This document shows positions 16,893 through 64,000 of a stretch of 64,000 nucleotides of DNA, piece after piece. Position 1 is the stretch's first letter; the number at the start of each line of letters is the position of its first letter. Under the pieces are notes generated by a model. The model was not told the DNA's origin. It saw only the letters and a list, made by a program, of their open reading frames with translations, and ran no database searches. Source of the DNA: an uncultured Candidatus Saccharibacteria bacterium (GTDB lineage Bacteria; Patescibacteriota; Saccharimonadia; Saccharimonadales; Saccharimonadaceae); the NCBI GenBank assembly GCA_946404545.1, contig CAMJDZ010000001.1, positions 62,001-126,000 of the forward strand. The letters are read 5' to 3'. Made by a program: the position numbers and the translations under genes.

Positions 16893-18488
16893 ATGAAAAG
16901 TAGAGGTCAGAAAAAATACGAGAATCCGTTTAAGATTGTCGTTTACGTATTATCACTCCTAGCAACAATTGCTTACATCGTTTATCGTTTTGCGTTCACA
17001 ATGCCGTGGAATCTCTATGCGATTGATATTATTTTTGGCATTATCGTGATTTTCGTCGAGCTCGTCGAAGTGGTCGAGTTCGGAGTTTACTTCTGGCATA
17101 TTTTGCGTGTCAAAAAATACGTGCCGGAAACGCCAGAGATGAACAAGGCCAACTTCCCTGACGTCGACGTGTTTATCGCGACCTACAACGAAGGCGAGGA
17201 TGTGCTCGAAAAGACACTCGCAGCTTGCGCCAAGATGAAATATCCAGATATTCGCAAGGTTCATATTTATCTCTGCGATGACGGCAACCGTCCCGAGCTG
17301 AAAGAGCTGACCGACAAGTACGGCGCCAAGCTAATTACGCGCGAGCTAAACCGCTTCGCGAAGGCTGGCAACTACAACCATGCGCTTCGCGTCACCGATT
17401 CCCCATACATTGCGATTTTTGATGCCGACATGCGCCCGACTGCCGATTTCTTGATGAAGACGATTCCGTTCTTTAGCGAAGAAAAAATGGGCTTCGCGCA
17501 GACGCCGCAGAGTTTCAAAAACCCAGATATTTTCCAGGCCAAACTCAGCAGACATACGCCATTTGAGCAGGATTATTTCTATCACTACATTCAGATTGCG
17601 CGCAACCGCACGAACTCTGTGATTATGTGTGGTACCAACTGCGTGCTATCGCGCGAGGCGCTCAAGAAAGCCGGCGGCTTTGCGCAGGCGACGATTGCCG
17701 AAGACGTTGCGACTGGCATGTTGATGGAAGCCAAGGGCTACCGTGGTATTGCAATCGACGAAGTGCTCGCTTACGGCGAAAACATCAATAGCGTTGGCGC
17801 CTTCCTTACGCAGCGTTCGCGTTGGGGCCGCGGCTGTATTCAGACCGCTAAGGCCTACGGCATCTTCCGCATCAAAGGTTTGAAGCTCGGTCAAAAACTC
17901 GATTATTTCGTCGCGATTAATTACTGGTGCTTTGGTCTCAAACGCATGCTCTACATGCTCTTGCCATTGCTTTTTGCTTTCATTGGCGTCATCGCAATTC
18001 AGGGCGATTTGCTCGTATTCTCGATCATCTTCTTCACGCAGTACTTGCTGAAACGCTTCGTGATTGACTGGCTCGAGCGCGGCTACAAATCTTCGACTTG
18101 GTCTAAGATTTACGAAATTATCCAGGCGCCATACATGGCAATGGTAATTCTCGGCGAGCTCATCGGTATTTCGATCAAGAAGTTTAGCGTGACACCAAAG
18201 GGCGCCGCAAACAAAAAAGCCAAGCGCAGCATCAAGCTCCTGATTTGCCACTTGGTTTTGATTGGCCTGAATGCGGCCGGCATCGCCGTGGCAGTAATGC
18301 GCGGACAGGCAGGCAATATGAACCTTTATATTATTCCGATTGTTTGGATGGGCATTAATAGTTTCTATTTGCTCTTTGCATTACTCTTCGATATTCGCAA
18401 CAGCCGCAACTACAAGAATTTCAAGCCGAACGAAGTTAAAAATTACGGCATCAAATCTTATCTAGGTCTCTTTAAGAGGGGTGCATGA
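16893..18488 (+). CDS. BcsA-like processive glycosyltransferase (GT2)
   Basis: 531 residues. Two N-terminal TM helices, a cytoplasmic GT2 domain, then a C-terminal TM block. Synthase motifs are all visible: FIATYNEG, LCDDGNRPE (first Asp), FDADMRP (DxD), IAEDVATG (catalytic Asp of the TED-type motif) and QRSRWGRG (QxxRW). FSVTPKG after the TM block is also BcsA-like. It lacks the PilZ domain of true BcsA, and no bcsB is nearby, so c-di-GMP control is unlikely. Expected to polymerise and extrude a beta-glucan from UDP-glucose. Its TGA overlaps the ATG of the GH5 gene (ATGA). Confidence 0.88.
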   Translation: MKSRGQKKYENPFKIVVYVLSLLATIAYIVYRFAFTMPWNLYAIDIIFGIIVIFVELVEVVEFGVYFWHILRVKKYVPETPEMNKANFPDVDVFIATYNEGEDVLEKTLAACAKMKYPDIRKVHIYLCDDGNRPELKELTDKYGAKLITRELNRFAKAGNYNHALRVTDSPYIAIFDADMRPTADFLMKTIPFFSEEKMGFAQTPQSFKNPDIFQAKLSRHTPFEQDYFYHYIQIARNRTNSVIMCGTNCVLSREALKKAGGFAQATIAEDVATGMLMEAKGYRGIAIDEVLAYGENINSVGAFLTQRSRWGRGCIQTAKAYGIFRIKGLKLGQKLDYFVAINYWCFGLKRMLYMLLPLLFAFIGVIAIQGDLLVFSIIFFTQYLLKRFVIDWLERGYKSSTWSKIYEIIQAPYMAMVILGELIGISIKKFSVTPKGAANKKAKRSIKLLICHLVLIGLNAAGIAVAVMRGQAGNMNLYIIPIVWMGINSFYLLFALLFDIRNSRNYKNFKPNEVKNYGIKSYLGLFKRGA

Positions 18489-19510
18489 AAAAGAAAGTCA
18501 CCGCAATTGTCGCGGCGGCGATTCTCGTGTGTTTGGCGATAGGAGGCGTCGTGCTTTTTATGATTTTGAATCAACCGGACAGGAAAAGCGTTTCGTATAA
18601 TGGCCAGCTGCGCGTGGATGGCAATCGTATCGTCAATCAGCACAATGAAGAAGTCCAGCTTACCGGCATCAGCACGCACGGCATTCAGTGGTATGGCGAT
18701 TTATACAATGAGACGAGTATTGCCGAACTGAAGAATGAATTCGGGATTAATGTTTTTCGCATTGCAATGTATGTGAACCCGGGCGACAACGGCTATATTG
18801 CGAACCGTGGTCTCAAAGAAAAGGTGATAGAGTTGGTCGAAGCGGCAATCAAGCTCGATATGTATGCGATTATCGACTGGCATATTTTGAACGATAATAA
18901 TCCACAAACTTATGAGGCCGAAGCGCTCGAATTCTTCGGCGAGATGAGCGGAAAATACGGCGAGACACCGAATGTGATTTATGAGATTTGTAATGAGCCA
19001 AACGGCAGCGACGTTTCTTGGGGCGGCAACATTCGTCCATATGCTGAGAAACTCGTGGCAAAGATTCGCGAGCACGCCGAGAAGGCGATTGTGATTGTCG
19101 GTACGCCGAACTGGAGCAAAGCGATTGAGCAGGTCGATTCGAATCCGCTCGACGACAAAAACGTCGCTTACGCGCTACACTTTTATGCGGGTTCCGAGAA
19201 CGTCACTTTGCGCGACGAGATGGATCATTTCCGCAGTAAAAACCTAGCCTTGTTCGTCTCCGAATGCGGTTCGACTGACGCGAGTGGCCAGGGCGATTTG
19301 CATGAAGATAATTTCAAAGTCTGGATTGATTTCTTGAACAAAAACAAAATCAGCTGGGTGTTTTGGGCGTTCTCGAACAAGAACGAGGCGTCTTCGATTG
19401 TGACCGAAAAATACAAGCCGGGCGTCGCGGACGACGAGACCGGCTTGGAAAACTATTTGACTGAGAACGGTCGATTATTGAAGCGAACGCTTGTTCCGCC
19501 AGAAGATTAG
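18485..19510 (+). CDS. Membrane-anchored GH5 endoglucanase
   Basis: 341 residues. N-terminal signal anchor (~5-30) and then a GH5 (subfamily-2-like) barrel: LTGISTHGIQWYGD, FRIAMYVNPG, IDWHILNDN, the acid/base Glu in YEICNEPNG and the nucleophile Glu in FVSECGSTD. These enzymes cut beta-1,4-glucans. The 4-nt overlap with the synthase gene indicates translational coupling and a role in trimming or releasing the nascent glucan, as BcsZ or CMCax do in cellulose operons. Its 3' end overlaps the convergent gene by 3 nt, with no terminator between. Confidence 0.9.
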   Translation: MKKKVTAIVAAAILVCLAIGGVVLFMILNQPDRKSVSYNGQLRVDGNRIVNQHNEEVQLTGISTHGIQWYGDLYNETSIAELKNEFGINVFRIAMYVNPGDNGYIANRGLKEKVIELVEAAIKLDMYAIIDWHILNDNNPQTYEAEALEFFGEMSGKYGETPNVIYEICNEPNGSDVSWGGNIRPYAEKLVAKIREHAEKAIVIVGTPNWSKAIEQVDSNPLDDKNVAYALHFYAGSENVTLRDEMDHFRSKNLALFVSECGSTDASGQGDLHEDNFKVWIDFLNKNKISWVFWAFSNKNEASSIVTEKYKPGVADDETGLENYLTENGRLLKRTLVPPED

Positions 19511-19941
19511 GCGGCGTAGGCAACGTTGCGGGCGATTGCCTGCTCTTCGAGGCGTTCGGCGCGAAGAGCGTCATCGATAGCAGAGTTGACGGAGTGCTTG
19601 ACGCGGGCTTTTTCTTCGGCCTTTTTGCCGTCATTCCAGCGCTCGAGCGAGCCGACGAGGTAGCCGGTGATGCGGCGGAGGCGTTCAAACTGCGCGCCAA
19701 AGTATTGCTCGTGATCTTCGTAGTATTTCTTCGCGGCAGCTTCGTCGCCGGCAGCAATTAAGAGCTGCGTGCCGAGCTCGACGAGACGACTAACATGAAG
19801 ATTTTCGTACTCGTTGACGGTCTTGAGACCAGCCTCGATGGCGGCGTCAGAGACCTTTGCGTAATTGTTGAGAGATTTTTTAAAACGAGCCAAGTCGAAT
19901 GGAGTTTTGTCGCTTGGTTCAAAGTAGAGGATGTTTTTCAT
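19507..19941 (-). CDS. Stand-alone NrdD-type glycyl-radical domain protein (candidate spare radical subunit)
   Basis: 144 residues. Residues ~85-117 carry the C-terminal radical loop of class III ribonucleotide reductase: RRITGYLVGS, LERWNDGKK, ARVKH. Gly93 in TGYL matches the radical glycine (G681 of E. coli NrdD). Compared with the full NrdD at 62528-64000 it is identical over 26 residues from FERLRR onward, but the zinc-binding Cys pairs before the loop are missing and residues 1-84 are unrelated and helical. No active-site region is present, so it cannot be a reductase alone. By analogy with GrcA/YfiD for pyruvate formate-lyase it could restore an oxygen-cleaved NrdD. The promoter contains two NrdR boxes. 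Alternatives: NrdD regulator, or gene remnant (less likely given intact frame and operator). Confidence 0.8.
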   Translation of the reverse strand: MKNILYFEPSDKTPFDLARFKKSLNNYAKVSDAAIEAGLKTVNEYENLHVSRLVELGTQLLIAAGDEAAAKKYYEDHEQYFGAQFERLRRITGYLVGSLERWNDGKKAEEKARVKHSVNSAIDDALRAERLEEQAIARNVAYAA

Positions 19942-19947
19942 AATTTT

Positions 19948-19976
19948 AGTATAAGCGCTATATATAGCGTTGTCAA
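19948..19976 (-). promoter_or_regulatory. Promoter of the stand-alone glycyl-radical gene
   Basis: Minus strand: -35 TTGACA (19971-19976), 17-nt spacer, -10 TATACT (19948-19953), then 6 nt to the ATG: a near-consensus promoter with leaderless start. The spacer is filled by NrdR box 1. Confidence 0.8.
19955..19970. promoter_or_regulatory. NrdR box 1
   Basis: GCGCTATATATAGCGT with core CTATATATAG, fitting the known NrdR consensus acaCwAtATaTwGtgt. It lies exactly between -35 and -10, so NrdR binding would block RNA polymerase. Confidence 0.75.
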
Positions 19977-19986
19977 TAGCATTTTT

Positions 19987-20002
19987 GCGCTATATGTAGT
20001 GT
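19987..20002. promoter_or_regulatory. NrdR box 2
   Basis: GCGCTATATGTAGTGT, core CTATATGTAG. Its centre is 32 bp (three helical turns) from box 1, the paired arrangement known for NrdR operators. It lies just upstream of both divergent promoters. Confidence 0.75.
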
Positions 20003-20025
20003 TTTTCCACAATTTTGCGGTGGTG

Positions 20026-20031
20026 TATAAT
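20026..20031 (+). promoter_or_regulatory. -10 box of the zinc-ribbon gene, leaderless spacing
   Basis: TATAAT, then 6 nt to the ATG at 20038. NrdR box 2 lies directly upstream of its likely -35 region. Confidence 0.55.
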
Positions 20032-20037
20032 GAAGGT

Positions 20038-20397
20038 ATGAAAATTATCGAGAAAAAGTGCCCAAATTGTGGCGGAAACCTAGATTTTAAAGTCGGCGAA
20101 CGTGACGTGAAATGCGAAAGCTGCCGCCGTAAGTTTGCCGTTGAATACGATGCGGATATTTCCGATCTAAGCGAAAAGGCGATGGATATGCTCAAGGCAG
20201 CAGACGTCAGCTTGCGCCCAGTACGCCGCGTGTTTATCGTGTTTTTCTGCGCGTTCTTCTTGATTGTGGCAGTCGCAATTACTATGTCTGTAATCTCGAT
20301 GATTAATAGTCGCAACGAGTTCAACAAAAAGTACGAGCAGTCTCAGCAGGAATTCGAAAAGAACAAGCAGGAAATGCTAGAAAGTATAGGTATGTAG
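20038..20397 (+). CDS. Zinc-ribbon membrane protein
   Basis: 119 residues using the ATG at 20038, chosen because a TATAAT ends 6 nt upstream; the reading frame is open further 5' but that would cross the divergent promoter. It has an N-terminal zinc ribbon (CPNCGG...CESC), one TM helix (about 66-90, VFIVFFCAFFLIVAVAITMSVI) and a charged C-terminal coiled-coil tail. Function unknown. It is divergent from the glycyl-radical gene, sharing the region with NrdR boxes, and 1 nt upstream of a flavodoxin gene. Confidence 0.75.
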   Translation: MKIIEKKCPNCGGNLDFKVGERDVKCESCRRKFAVEYDADISDLSEKAMDMLKAADVSLRPVRRVFIVFFCAFFLIVAVAITMSVISMINSRNEFNKKYEQSQQEFEKNKQEMLESIGM

Positions 20398-61918: not shown

Positions 61919-62527
61919 TTATTCTTCCGAAACTATTTCTCCACCCTTTAGATGTAAAATGCGCTGATTACGCGAACCGCGGAATTTCATCGTGAGGTCA
62001 CGCTGGCTGAGGATGAATGGGCCATCGATCAGGGCATCGAGCTCTTTGACGAATTCCCATTCAATGCCATCACGTGGGATGCGCTCGTAAACGAGGCCAG
62101 TGAAGGACCAAACGTTCCAGCCGAGTTCCTGATGACAAAACTTGGCGATTTCGAGCAAAGGACCACACTGAAGCATTGGTTCGCCGCCGCAGAAAGTAAT
62201 TCCCGACTGCCCTTTGAGCTTGCGGAGCTCGTCTTTGACTTTTTCGATAGTAACGGTGGCGCCGACAGATGGATCCTCGGTCCAAGTCTCCGGATTCTGG
62301 CAGCCAGGGCAGGCCTGACGGCAACCCTGGACCCAGAGTACGGCGCGGAGGCCTGGACCATTGACGATCGAATCGTGTTCGAGGTCGCCAGAAAGGCGGA
62401 TGTAGCCATCCGGGACGTCGAGTTGAGGACGGCAGAGCCAGGTTTGTGGCCTGCCCGTCCGTTCACCGTCCGCCGCTTTACGCGTGCGAGAGACGGTGTC
62501 CGGGTTCAAATCTTCGTTAGCGGGCAT
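61919..62527 (-). CDS. nrdG: Anaerobic ribonucleotide reductase activating protein
   Basis: 202 residues. Radical SAM enzyme that makes the glycyl radical on NrdD: CRQACPGCQNPETW (CxxxCxxC cluster), GITFCGGEPMLQ (GGE), VNGPGLRAVLWVQGC. The ~35 residues before DGYIRLSGD are extra (NEDLNPDTVSRTRK...). Its ATG follows the nrdD TAA with no gap. It needs an Fe-S cluster (iscS/iscU at 53 kb) and a reductant such as flavodoxin. The stand-alone glycyl-radical protein at 19507 would be its second substrate (inference). Confidence 0.95.
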   Translation of the reverse strand: MPANEDLNPDTVSRTRKAADGERTGRPQTWLCRPQLDVPDGYIRLSGDLEHDSIVNGPGLRAVLWVQGCRQACPGCQNPETWTEDPSVGATVTIEKVKDELRKLKGQSGITFCGGEPMLQCGPLLEIAKFCHQELGWNVWSFTGLVYERIPRDGIEWEFVKELDALIDGPFILSQRDLTMKFRGSRNQRILHLKGGEIVSEE

Positions 62528-64000
62528 TTAAGCCTTTCCGATAGCCTTCTTGGCAGAAGCTTTCTTAGCCTCGCGGGCGCACTTGGTCTTGAGATCGTAC
62601 TGGCCGACGGAAACGTTGTGTTTGACGCGGGCAGCTTCCTCAGCCTTCTTGCCATCGTTCCAGCGTTCGAGGGAACCGACGAGGTAGCCAGTGATGCGGC
62701 GGAGGCGTTCAAAGCCACATTCGCCATCGCATTCTTTACGGCCACAGTTTGGACAAGTATCGCCCTTGATGATACCAGAGAAGCCACAAACTGGATCGCG
62801 GTCGACTGGATGGTTGACGGAACCGTAACCGATGCCGGCTTCCTTCATATGGCGGATGACCGCCTCAAAGGCTTCGATATTTTCGGAAGGATCGCCGTCC
62901 ATTTCGATGTAGGTAATATGACCAGCGTTACAGAGGGCGTGATATGGCGCCTCAATGTCAATCTTCTCAAAGGCGGAAATTGGGTAGTAGACAGGAACGT
63001 GGAAGGAGTTGGTGTAGAAGTCGCGGTCCGTGACGCCCTTGATTTTACCGAATTCCTTGCGGTCCATCTTCGTGAAGCGGCCAGAAAGACCTTCGGCTGG
63101 GGTTGCGAGCAAGGAGTAGTTGAGGTGCATCTTCTTGGTTTCTTCATCGCAGAAGTCGCGCATGTGGCCGATAATGTCGAGACCGATTTCTTGAGCTTCG
63201 GCAGATTCGCCATGGTGCTTGCCAATCATTGCGACGAGCGTTTCGGCGAGGCCAATGAAGCCAATCGAAAGGGTACCGTGCTTGATGACGTCGCGGAGCT
63301 TGTCGTTTGGTTTGAGCTTCTCGCTACCAACCCAGTTGCCCTGGCCCATGAGGAATGGGAAGTTCTTGACCTTTTGGTTGCCCTGGAATTCAAAGCGCTG
63401 GTAAAGCTGATCGGCGCAGAGGCGAAGCTTTTCGTCGAGTTCATGATAGAAGCCGTCCCAATCTGGTTCTTTGCGCTCGCCGAGGCAGATACCGTGCTTG
63501 ATACCAATGCGGACGAGGTTCAAAGTGGTGAAGGAACAGTTACCGCGGCCAAAGACCTTACCGTCGGTTTCCTTGAAGCAGGAACCGAAGACGCGCGTGC
63601 GGCAGCCCATGGTTGCGAGCTCAGTGTTTGGATCACCTGGCTTGTAGTACTGAAGGTTGTATGGGGCGTCGAGGAAGCTGAAGTTCGGGAAGAGGCGCTT
63701 AGCGGAAACTTCCATGGAGCGCTTGAAGAGATCGTAGTTTGGATCCTCTGGGTTGTAGTTGATGCCTTCCTTGACCTTGAAAATCGAGATAGGGAAGATT
63801 GGCGTCTCATGATGACCAAGACCATTCATCGTAGCTTCGAGAAGCATCTTGGAGACGAGGCGGCCAGATTCGGTCGTATCGGTACCGAAGTTGATGCTCG
63901 TAAATGGAACCTGAGCACCTGCACGGCTGTGCATAGTGTTGAGGTTATGGACGAAGCCTTCCATGGCCTGGAGCGTCTGATGCTCCGTGTCTTCTTTAGC
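62528..64000 (-). CDS. nrdD: Anaerobic (class III) ribonucleoside-triphosphate reductase, C-terminal part
   Basis: Open to the window edge (490 codons visible; the ATG at 63964 is internal). Reduces NTPs to dNTPs using a glycyl radical and formate. Seen: MEGFVHNLNTMHSRAGAQVPF, RVFGSCFKETDG (active-site Cys region), FTTLNLVRIG, LSIGFIGLAETL, SVNHPVDRDPVCGFSG with the zinc Cys pairs CPNC and CDGEC, then the radical loop RRITGYLVGS...RWNDGKK and ARVKH. After RVKH there is an unusual ~28-residue Lys/Ala-rich tail. The loop DNA (62641-62713) matches 19617-19689 in about 65 of 73 positions by hand count. Confidence 0.97.
   Translation of the reverse strand, partial: AKEDTEHQTLQAMEGFVHNLNTMHSRAGAQVPFTSINFGTDTTESGRLVSKMLLEATMNGLGHHETPIFPISIFKVKEGINYNPEDPNYDLFKRSMEVSAKRLFPNFSFLDAPYNLQYYKPGDPNTELATMGCRTRVFGSCFKETDGKVFGRGNCSFTTLNLVRIGIKHGICLGERKEPDWDGFYHELDEKLRLCADQLYQRFEFQGNQKVKNFPFLMGQGNWVGSEKLKPNDKLRDVIKHGTLSIGFIGLAETLVAMIGKHHGESAEAQEIGLDIIGHMRDFCDEETKKMHLNYSLLATPAEGLSGRFTKMDRKEFGKIKGVTDRDFYTNSFHVPVYYPISAFEKIDIEAPYHALCNAGHITYIEMDGDPSENIEAFEAVIRHMKEAGIGYGSVNHPVDRDPVCGFSGIIKGDTCPNCGRKECDGECGFERLRRITGYLVGSLERWNDGKKAEEAARVKHNVSVGQYDLKTKCAREAKKASAKKAIGKA

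Follow-up and report, generated by a model that had tools for sequence, protein, structure and literature searches.

The window, as we call the whole 64,000-nt stretch of DNA analysed here, from a gut/rumen Saccharibacteria genome, contains a small gene for a 144-aa protein, read from the minus strand, and a zinc-ribbon/flavodoxin operon that diverges from it. On its other side the small gene adjoins 16893-19510, which encodes a membrane protein resembling glycosyltransferases and then a family-5 cellulase; only in the nearest relative does the cellulase keep this place beside the small gene. Upstream of the small gene, the minus strand reads in order: a palindrome (box 2), TTGACA, a second palindrome (box 1) within the 17-nt spacer (19954-19970), TATACT and the ATG at 19941. 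At the far end of the window are a gene for an nrdG-like activase and part of nrdD, a gene of 781 codons whose product contains an ATP-cone as well as a RRITGYLVGSLERWNDGKKAEE motif of its own. Coordinates are collected in Table 1.

Table 1. Features of the small-gene locus and of the nrdDG locus (positions counted from the first letter of the window)
Feature	Position	Strand	Description	Basis
NrdR box 1 (putative)	19955..19970		GCGCTATATATAGCGT; inside the -35/-10 spacer of the small-gene promoter	Read directly; conserved in 45/46 promoters
NrdR box 2 (putative)	19987..20002		GCGCTATATGTAGTGT; upstream of the -35 element	Read directly; centre 32 bp from that of box 1
-35 element	19971..19976	-	TTGACA; small-gene promoter	TTGAC kept in 45/46 promoters
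-10 element	19948..19953	-	TATACT; small-gene promoter	Predicted from sequence
Small gene	19507..19941	-	144-aa protein; N-terminus (about 1-80) predicted ATP-cone-like, C-terminus (84-116) NrdD-type glycyl-radical	
nrdG-like radical-SAM activase gene	61919..62527	-	Directly downstream of nrdD	ORF and sequence; named from a CxxxCxxC-type region and position only
nrdD, 3' part	62528..64000	-	Extends to contig position 126873, past the window end	

Direct reading of the letters agrees with the layout given in the initial annotation: two palindromes with centres 32 bp apart, one filling the spacer between TTGACA and TATACT and the other lying just upstream. Their cores are CTATATATAG and CTATATGTAG, and each box has 3 mismatches to the consensus ACACWATATATWGTGT. 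When the window is scanned with this consensus, allowing up to 3 mismatches, there are 3 matches and 0.31 are expected from shuffles; two of them are the box pair, and the third, with 3 mismatches, stands alone at 1836-1851. The two boxes are separated by a gap of 16 bp, inside the range of 14-17 bp that is bound best by four NrdRs; gaps of 14-17 or 24-27 bp correspond to integral helical turns between NrdR boxes (PMC12051234). The -10 element lies some 7 nt before the ATG, and the same distance is found at the divergent gene, whose ATG at 20038 follows a TATAAT (20026-20031) by 7 nt; thus, the mRNAs of the small gene and of the divergent zinc-ribbon gene are probably leaderless, and transcription of the former would be expected to start at or next to its ATG. 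Small genes of most relatives have a leader of 20-50 nt with a Shine-Dalgarno-like stretch.

The whole assembly (801 kb in 21 contigs, 94.6% complete) was searched for the strict paired pattern CYANATNTRG-N19-25-CYANATNTRG, with the reversed pattern as a control. The pattern occurs in exactly two places, the small-gene promoter and the nrdD promoter, and the reversed pattern in none. At nrdD the pair lies at C1:126931-126973 with a spacing of 33 bp, and the second box is placed differently: it is upstream of the spacer box at the small gene and downstream of it at nrdD. The same paired boxes are found in every one of the 26 nrdD promoters examined, and the genome has a single nrdR gene (C2:99629-100039), directly after ftsZ. 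Both observations are as the initial annotation anticipated, and its proposal that the palindromes are NrdR boxes, which tie the small gene to ribonucleotide reduction, is strengthened by them; the tie is given by the operator independently of the sequence of the small gene itself.

Relatives give the same picture; the genomes compared are mostly draft assemblies or metagenome bins, and their promoters are predicted. In a class-wide search the full-length small gene is confined to two genera (g1 and g27) of 129. Within the window's genus 26 of 37 genomes have it, and it was found at 46 public loci, of which almost all bear a Saccharibacteria label and many come from the guts of herbivores. A matrix trained on nrdD promoters alone scores 23.9 and 21.8 at the two boxes of the window; run on all 46 small-gene promoters (the window's included), it finds a pair with 31-33 bp spacing in 45 of them, the sole exception (L076) having no clear pair, and in 0 of 1240 Markov-randomised promoters. 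A box occupies the -35/-10 spacer, here 16-18 nt long, in 45/46. Each of the 37 genus genomes has at least one strict pair, and the reversed control finds none in 61 genomes. Where coordinates were compared by eye, a strict pair stands just upstream of the small gene, 17-120 bp from it, in 25 of the 26 genomes having the gene (the exception is G014), and exactly one strict pair is present in 10 of the 11 genus genomes without it. In two g27 genomes the pair is found at both the small gene and nrdD.

The boxes also appear at other genes. PF02867, which represents class I/II RNRs, has no match in the window's genome or in 34 of the 36 other congeners, so that a class I/II RNR can be rejected for this genome. 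The only congeners with a match, G002 and G013, have neither nrdD nor the small gene; they carry a PF02867 RNR large subunit, and a pair lies directly upstream of it. Of 20 loci with a canonical NrdR that were scanned, 14 have a looser pair before nrdR. Taken together, the pairs at the PF02867 RNR and before canonical nrdR show that the boxes go with RNR, whichever type it is. In most of the genus genomes examined (L162-L165, L182-L200), pyrG, the gene for CTP synthase, has a strong box some 126-134 bp before it, and a few of these genomes add a full second box; a pair is found upstream of pyrG in two other genera (G181 and G325; loci L242 and L247). From these sequences pyrG is likely a third NrdR target. 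A PyrG match was looked for in the window assembly and none was found. In a genome of another family with a PF02867 RNR (G037), a pair at L170 2598-2640 stands before a run of genes with cobalamin adenosyltransferase-like and dUTPase-like ORFs. The distribution of pairs, the controls and the co-occurrence with RNR genes together argue that the two palindromes of the window are, very probably, a functional NrdR operator; the small gene would thus belong to the NrdR regulon.

Two further elements were seen around the nrdD promoter. A third, single full box lies upstream of the nrdD pair (C1:127037-127050), 75 bp from the next box, and half-sites are found near it in relatives; this box might take part in looping, or in controlling the divergent gene together with a dUTPase-like ORF there. 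The second element is a different palindrome, TTGTAAAAATTACAA-like, in this genome TTGTANNNNNTACAA. The latter has 8 exact sites, one between the nrdD pair and the third box (C1:126991-127005) and some in a cluster at C14:9198-10052; with one mismatch allowed there are 31 sites, barely above the control of 25. In many relatives (L041-L064) a TTGTAAAAATTACAA-like palindrome stands just before box 2 of the small-gene promoter, and it is possibly the site of another regulator.

The small protein has two parts. Residues 84-116 match the glycyl-radical end of NrdD as a near copy (NRDD E 2.9e-7), and the radical Gly93, in RRITGYL, is invariant together with its surrounding motif in 37 orthologues. 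RRITGYLVGSLERWNDGKKAEE is common to the small protein and the NrdD of this genome; the parent of the stand-alone copy is the resident NrdD, not PFL. For residues 1-80 the predicted fold has pLDDT 81-89 (the glycyl-radical half of the model is of low confidence) and is that of an ATP-cone. Foldseek aligns these residues to the ATP-cones of NrdR and RNRs (E 5e-3), and against E. coli NrdR, VIA gives Z 10.9 with rmsd 1.9 A over 77 residues; every chain in structural ranks 1-39 comes from an RNR or NrdR, and a clear drop follows, later rows being unrelated folds with Z 4.0 or less. Sequence profiles do not confirm the assignment (hhalign against NrdD cones, probability 1.6%; PF03477, one weak match among 37 members, E 0.11), and its basis is therefore the predicted fold.

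By analogy with YfiD, we consider it fairly probable that the small protein is an ATP-cone-like plus glycyl-radical spare part for NrdD cleaved by oxygen. A protein of this composition could instead be a brake, with the ATP-cone-like half docking on NrdD/NrdG and the glycyl-radical half competing either for the activase or at the active site. The predicted ATP-cone fold speaks for this, as the domain usually regulates RNR, and the usual KRDG-type loop of an ATP-cone is not evident in the sequence, which suggests docking rather than dATP sensing. However, an invariant Gly93 and motif are as expected of a radical that is used, and YfiD provides a precedent for repair (PMC8683613); we regard a brake as a doubtful but serious alternative to the spare part. 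Because class III RNR is nearly always the only RNR detected in the genus, repair of oxygen damage could matter for these host-associated bacteria.

The initial annotation also suggested that the boxes may control the divergent zinc-ribbon/flavodoxin operon. Box 2 does end beside the expected -35 position of the divergent TATAAT, an arrangement that would suit such control. The boxes, however, persist in relatives that have other neighbours: among the 46 relatives the divergent neighbour is kept in place only in the closest (L040), so that a conserved divergent operon is rejected. Control in this direction thus finds no support in the comparison, and we think it unlikely.

NrdR is usually described as a zinc-ribbon repressor. 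The NrdR of this genome has N-terminus MSHLKIGESKVIESRESQDGTMIRRRRVSLDGKHRFTTYE, which contains zero cysteines: all four that bind zinc are absent. Both CxxC knuckles are gone: the first has been shortened by two residues, and a short turn, for example DGK or DGR, stands in place of the second. The ribbon cysteines are missing from 47 of the NrdRs read in the family, all 35 from the genus and 12 of 13 from its other genera; the exception (G236) is canonical. As this canonical protein belongs to the same family, the zinc ligands were probably lost within the family. NrdRs read from other families are nearly all canonical, and one is N-terminally truncated. Most other families of the Saccharibacteria order have a second, low-scoring NrdR-like paralogue, some copies with internal stop codons. 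Residues 8-148 of the NrdR in this genome, which take in the ATP-cone domain, align to solved NrdRs (E 1.1e-22), and its score of 118.9 bits is below the NCBIfam TIGR00244 cut-off of 124.65.

Streptomyces NrdR binds DNA through its zinc ribbon, with contacts from R12, D15, R17, R26-29 and R37 (PMC9110341); a variant without the zinc ligands could thus bind differently. It might even have lost DNA binding, with another transcription factor occupying the palindromes, and the four absent cysteines and the score under the NCBIfam cut-off would fit such a replacement. Mapped by alignment to 7p37, however, the contact positions of the variant are K/R, D/E, R, RRRR and R, a motif kept in 47/47. Mean identity within the genus is 97% in the ribbon segment and 79% in the ATP-cone, which indicates strong constraint on the ribbon; no other part of the protein is as conserved, the opposite of decay. 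The boxes, for their part, retain the NrdR consensus and the three-turn spacing, stay with RNR genes despite a change of RNR type, and stand before nrdR as well in loci whose NrdR bears zinc. We therefore hold a different factor to be very improbable, and infer that the NrdR here is a variant that binds ordinary boxes without zinc. A chance origin, in which AT-rich sequence at an ordinary promoter happens to match, might be suggested by the AT-rich cores and the isolated look-alike with 3 mismatches, but it is refuted by near-zero shuffle, reversed-pattern and Markov controls and by conservation of the pair throughout the genus and in two genomes from another genus.

A working model can be assembled from these parts, with tetramer binding, dATP/ATP sensing and repression taken from studies of NrdR in other bacteria. 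When dATP is plentiful, an NrdR tetramer would sit at both boxes, on a single face of the helix, introducing a kink in the DNA and masking the -35/-10 region, so that the small gene is switched off; nrdDG, which has its own box pair, would be repressed together with it. The small protein, once made, would substitute for the glycyl-radical end of NrdD that oxygen has cleaved, in the way that YfiD serves PFL. On balance, if only just, we favour the full combination: a zinc-ligand-free NrdR acting on classical boxes to co-regulate class III RNR, what would be its first ATP-cone-like/glycyl-radical spare part, and CTP synthase. A literature search, limited in extent and thus weak evidence, returned nothing relevant on NrdR in Saccharibacteria/Patescibacteria, on NrdR in connection with CTP synthase, or on the anaerobic RNR of Saccharibacteria.

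The operator resembles those of the NrdR regulons of S. coelicolor (nrdRJ, nrdAB) and E. coli (nrdHIEF, nrdDG, nrdAB) in its palindromes of about 16 bp with a CTATATATAG-like core (PMC9110341, PMC12176259), and in having boxes three helical turns apart that overlap the promoters of RNR genes. Unlike in those regulons, a pair here would also control a stand-alone ATP-cone/glycyl-radical gene and probably pyrG. The presumed repressor shares the ATP-cone, the RRRR motif, D/E15, R17 and R37 with NrdR as represented by TIGR00244 and by structures 7p37, 9fvr and 9fzf, and presumably does the same job, but the Saccharibacteria variant has no CxxC pair at all and scores below the NCBIfam cut-off; loss of the zinc cysteines explains why the curated model misses these proteins.

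The closest counterpart of the small protein is YfiD/GrcA (PMC8683613), likewise a small separate protein that duplicates the glycyl-radical C-terminus of a resident glycyl-radical enzyme. The two differ in that the parent here is class III RNR, in that the N-terminus is predicted to be ATP-cone-like and that of YfiD is disordered, and in that the small gene stands under NrdR boxes, whereas YfiD is reported to be constitutive. Only spare parts for PFL have been validated so far, with the suggestion that others may exist (PMC8683613); the small gene makes that suggestion testable beyond pyruvate formate-lyase.

A lineage that has lost the zinc cysteines and kept both the contacts and the operator would allow the role of zinc, in fold stability, to be separated from the reading of DNA. 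A parallel can be drawn with Topo_C_Rpt and Topo_C_ZnRpt of type IA topoisomerases, which are a zinc-ribbon-type DNA-binding module without and with cysteines (PMC9369019). Topo_C_Rpt is a tail repeat, whereas the cysteine-free module described here would be the sole DNA-binding domain of a repressor.
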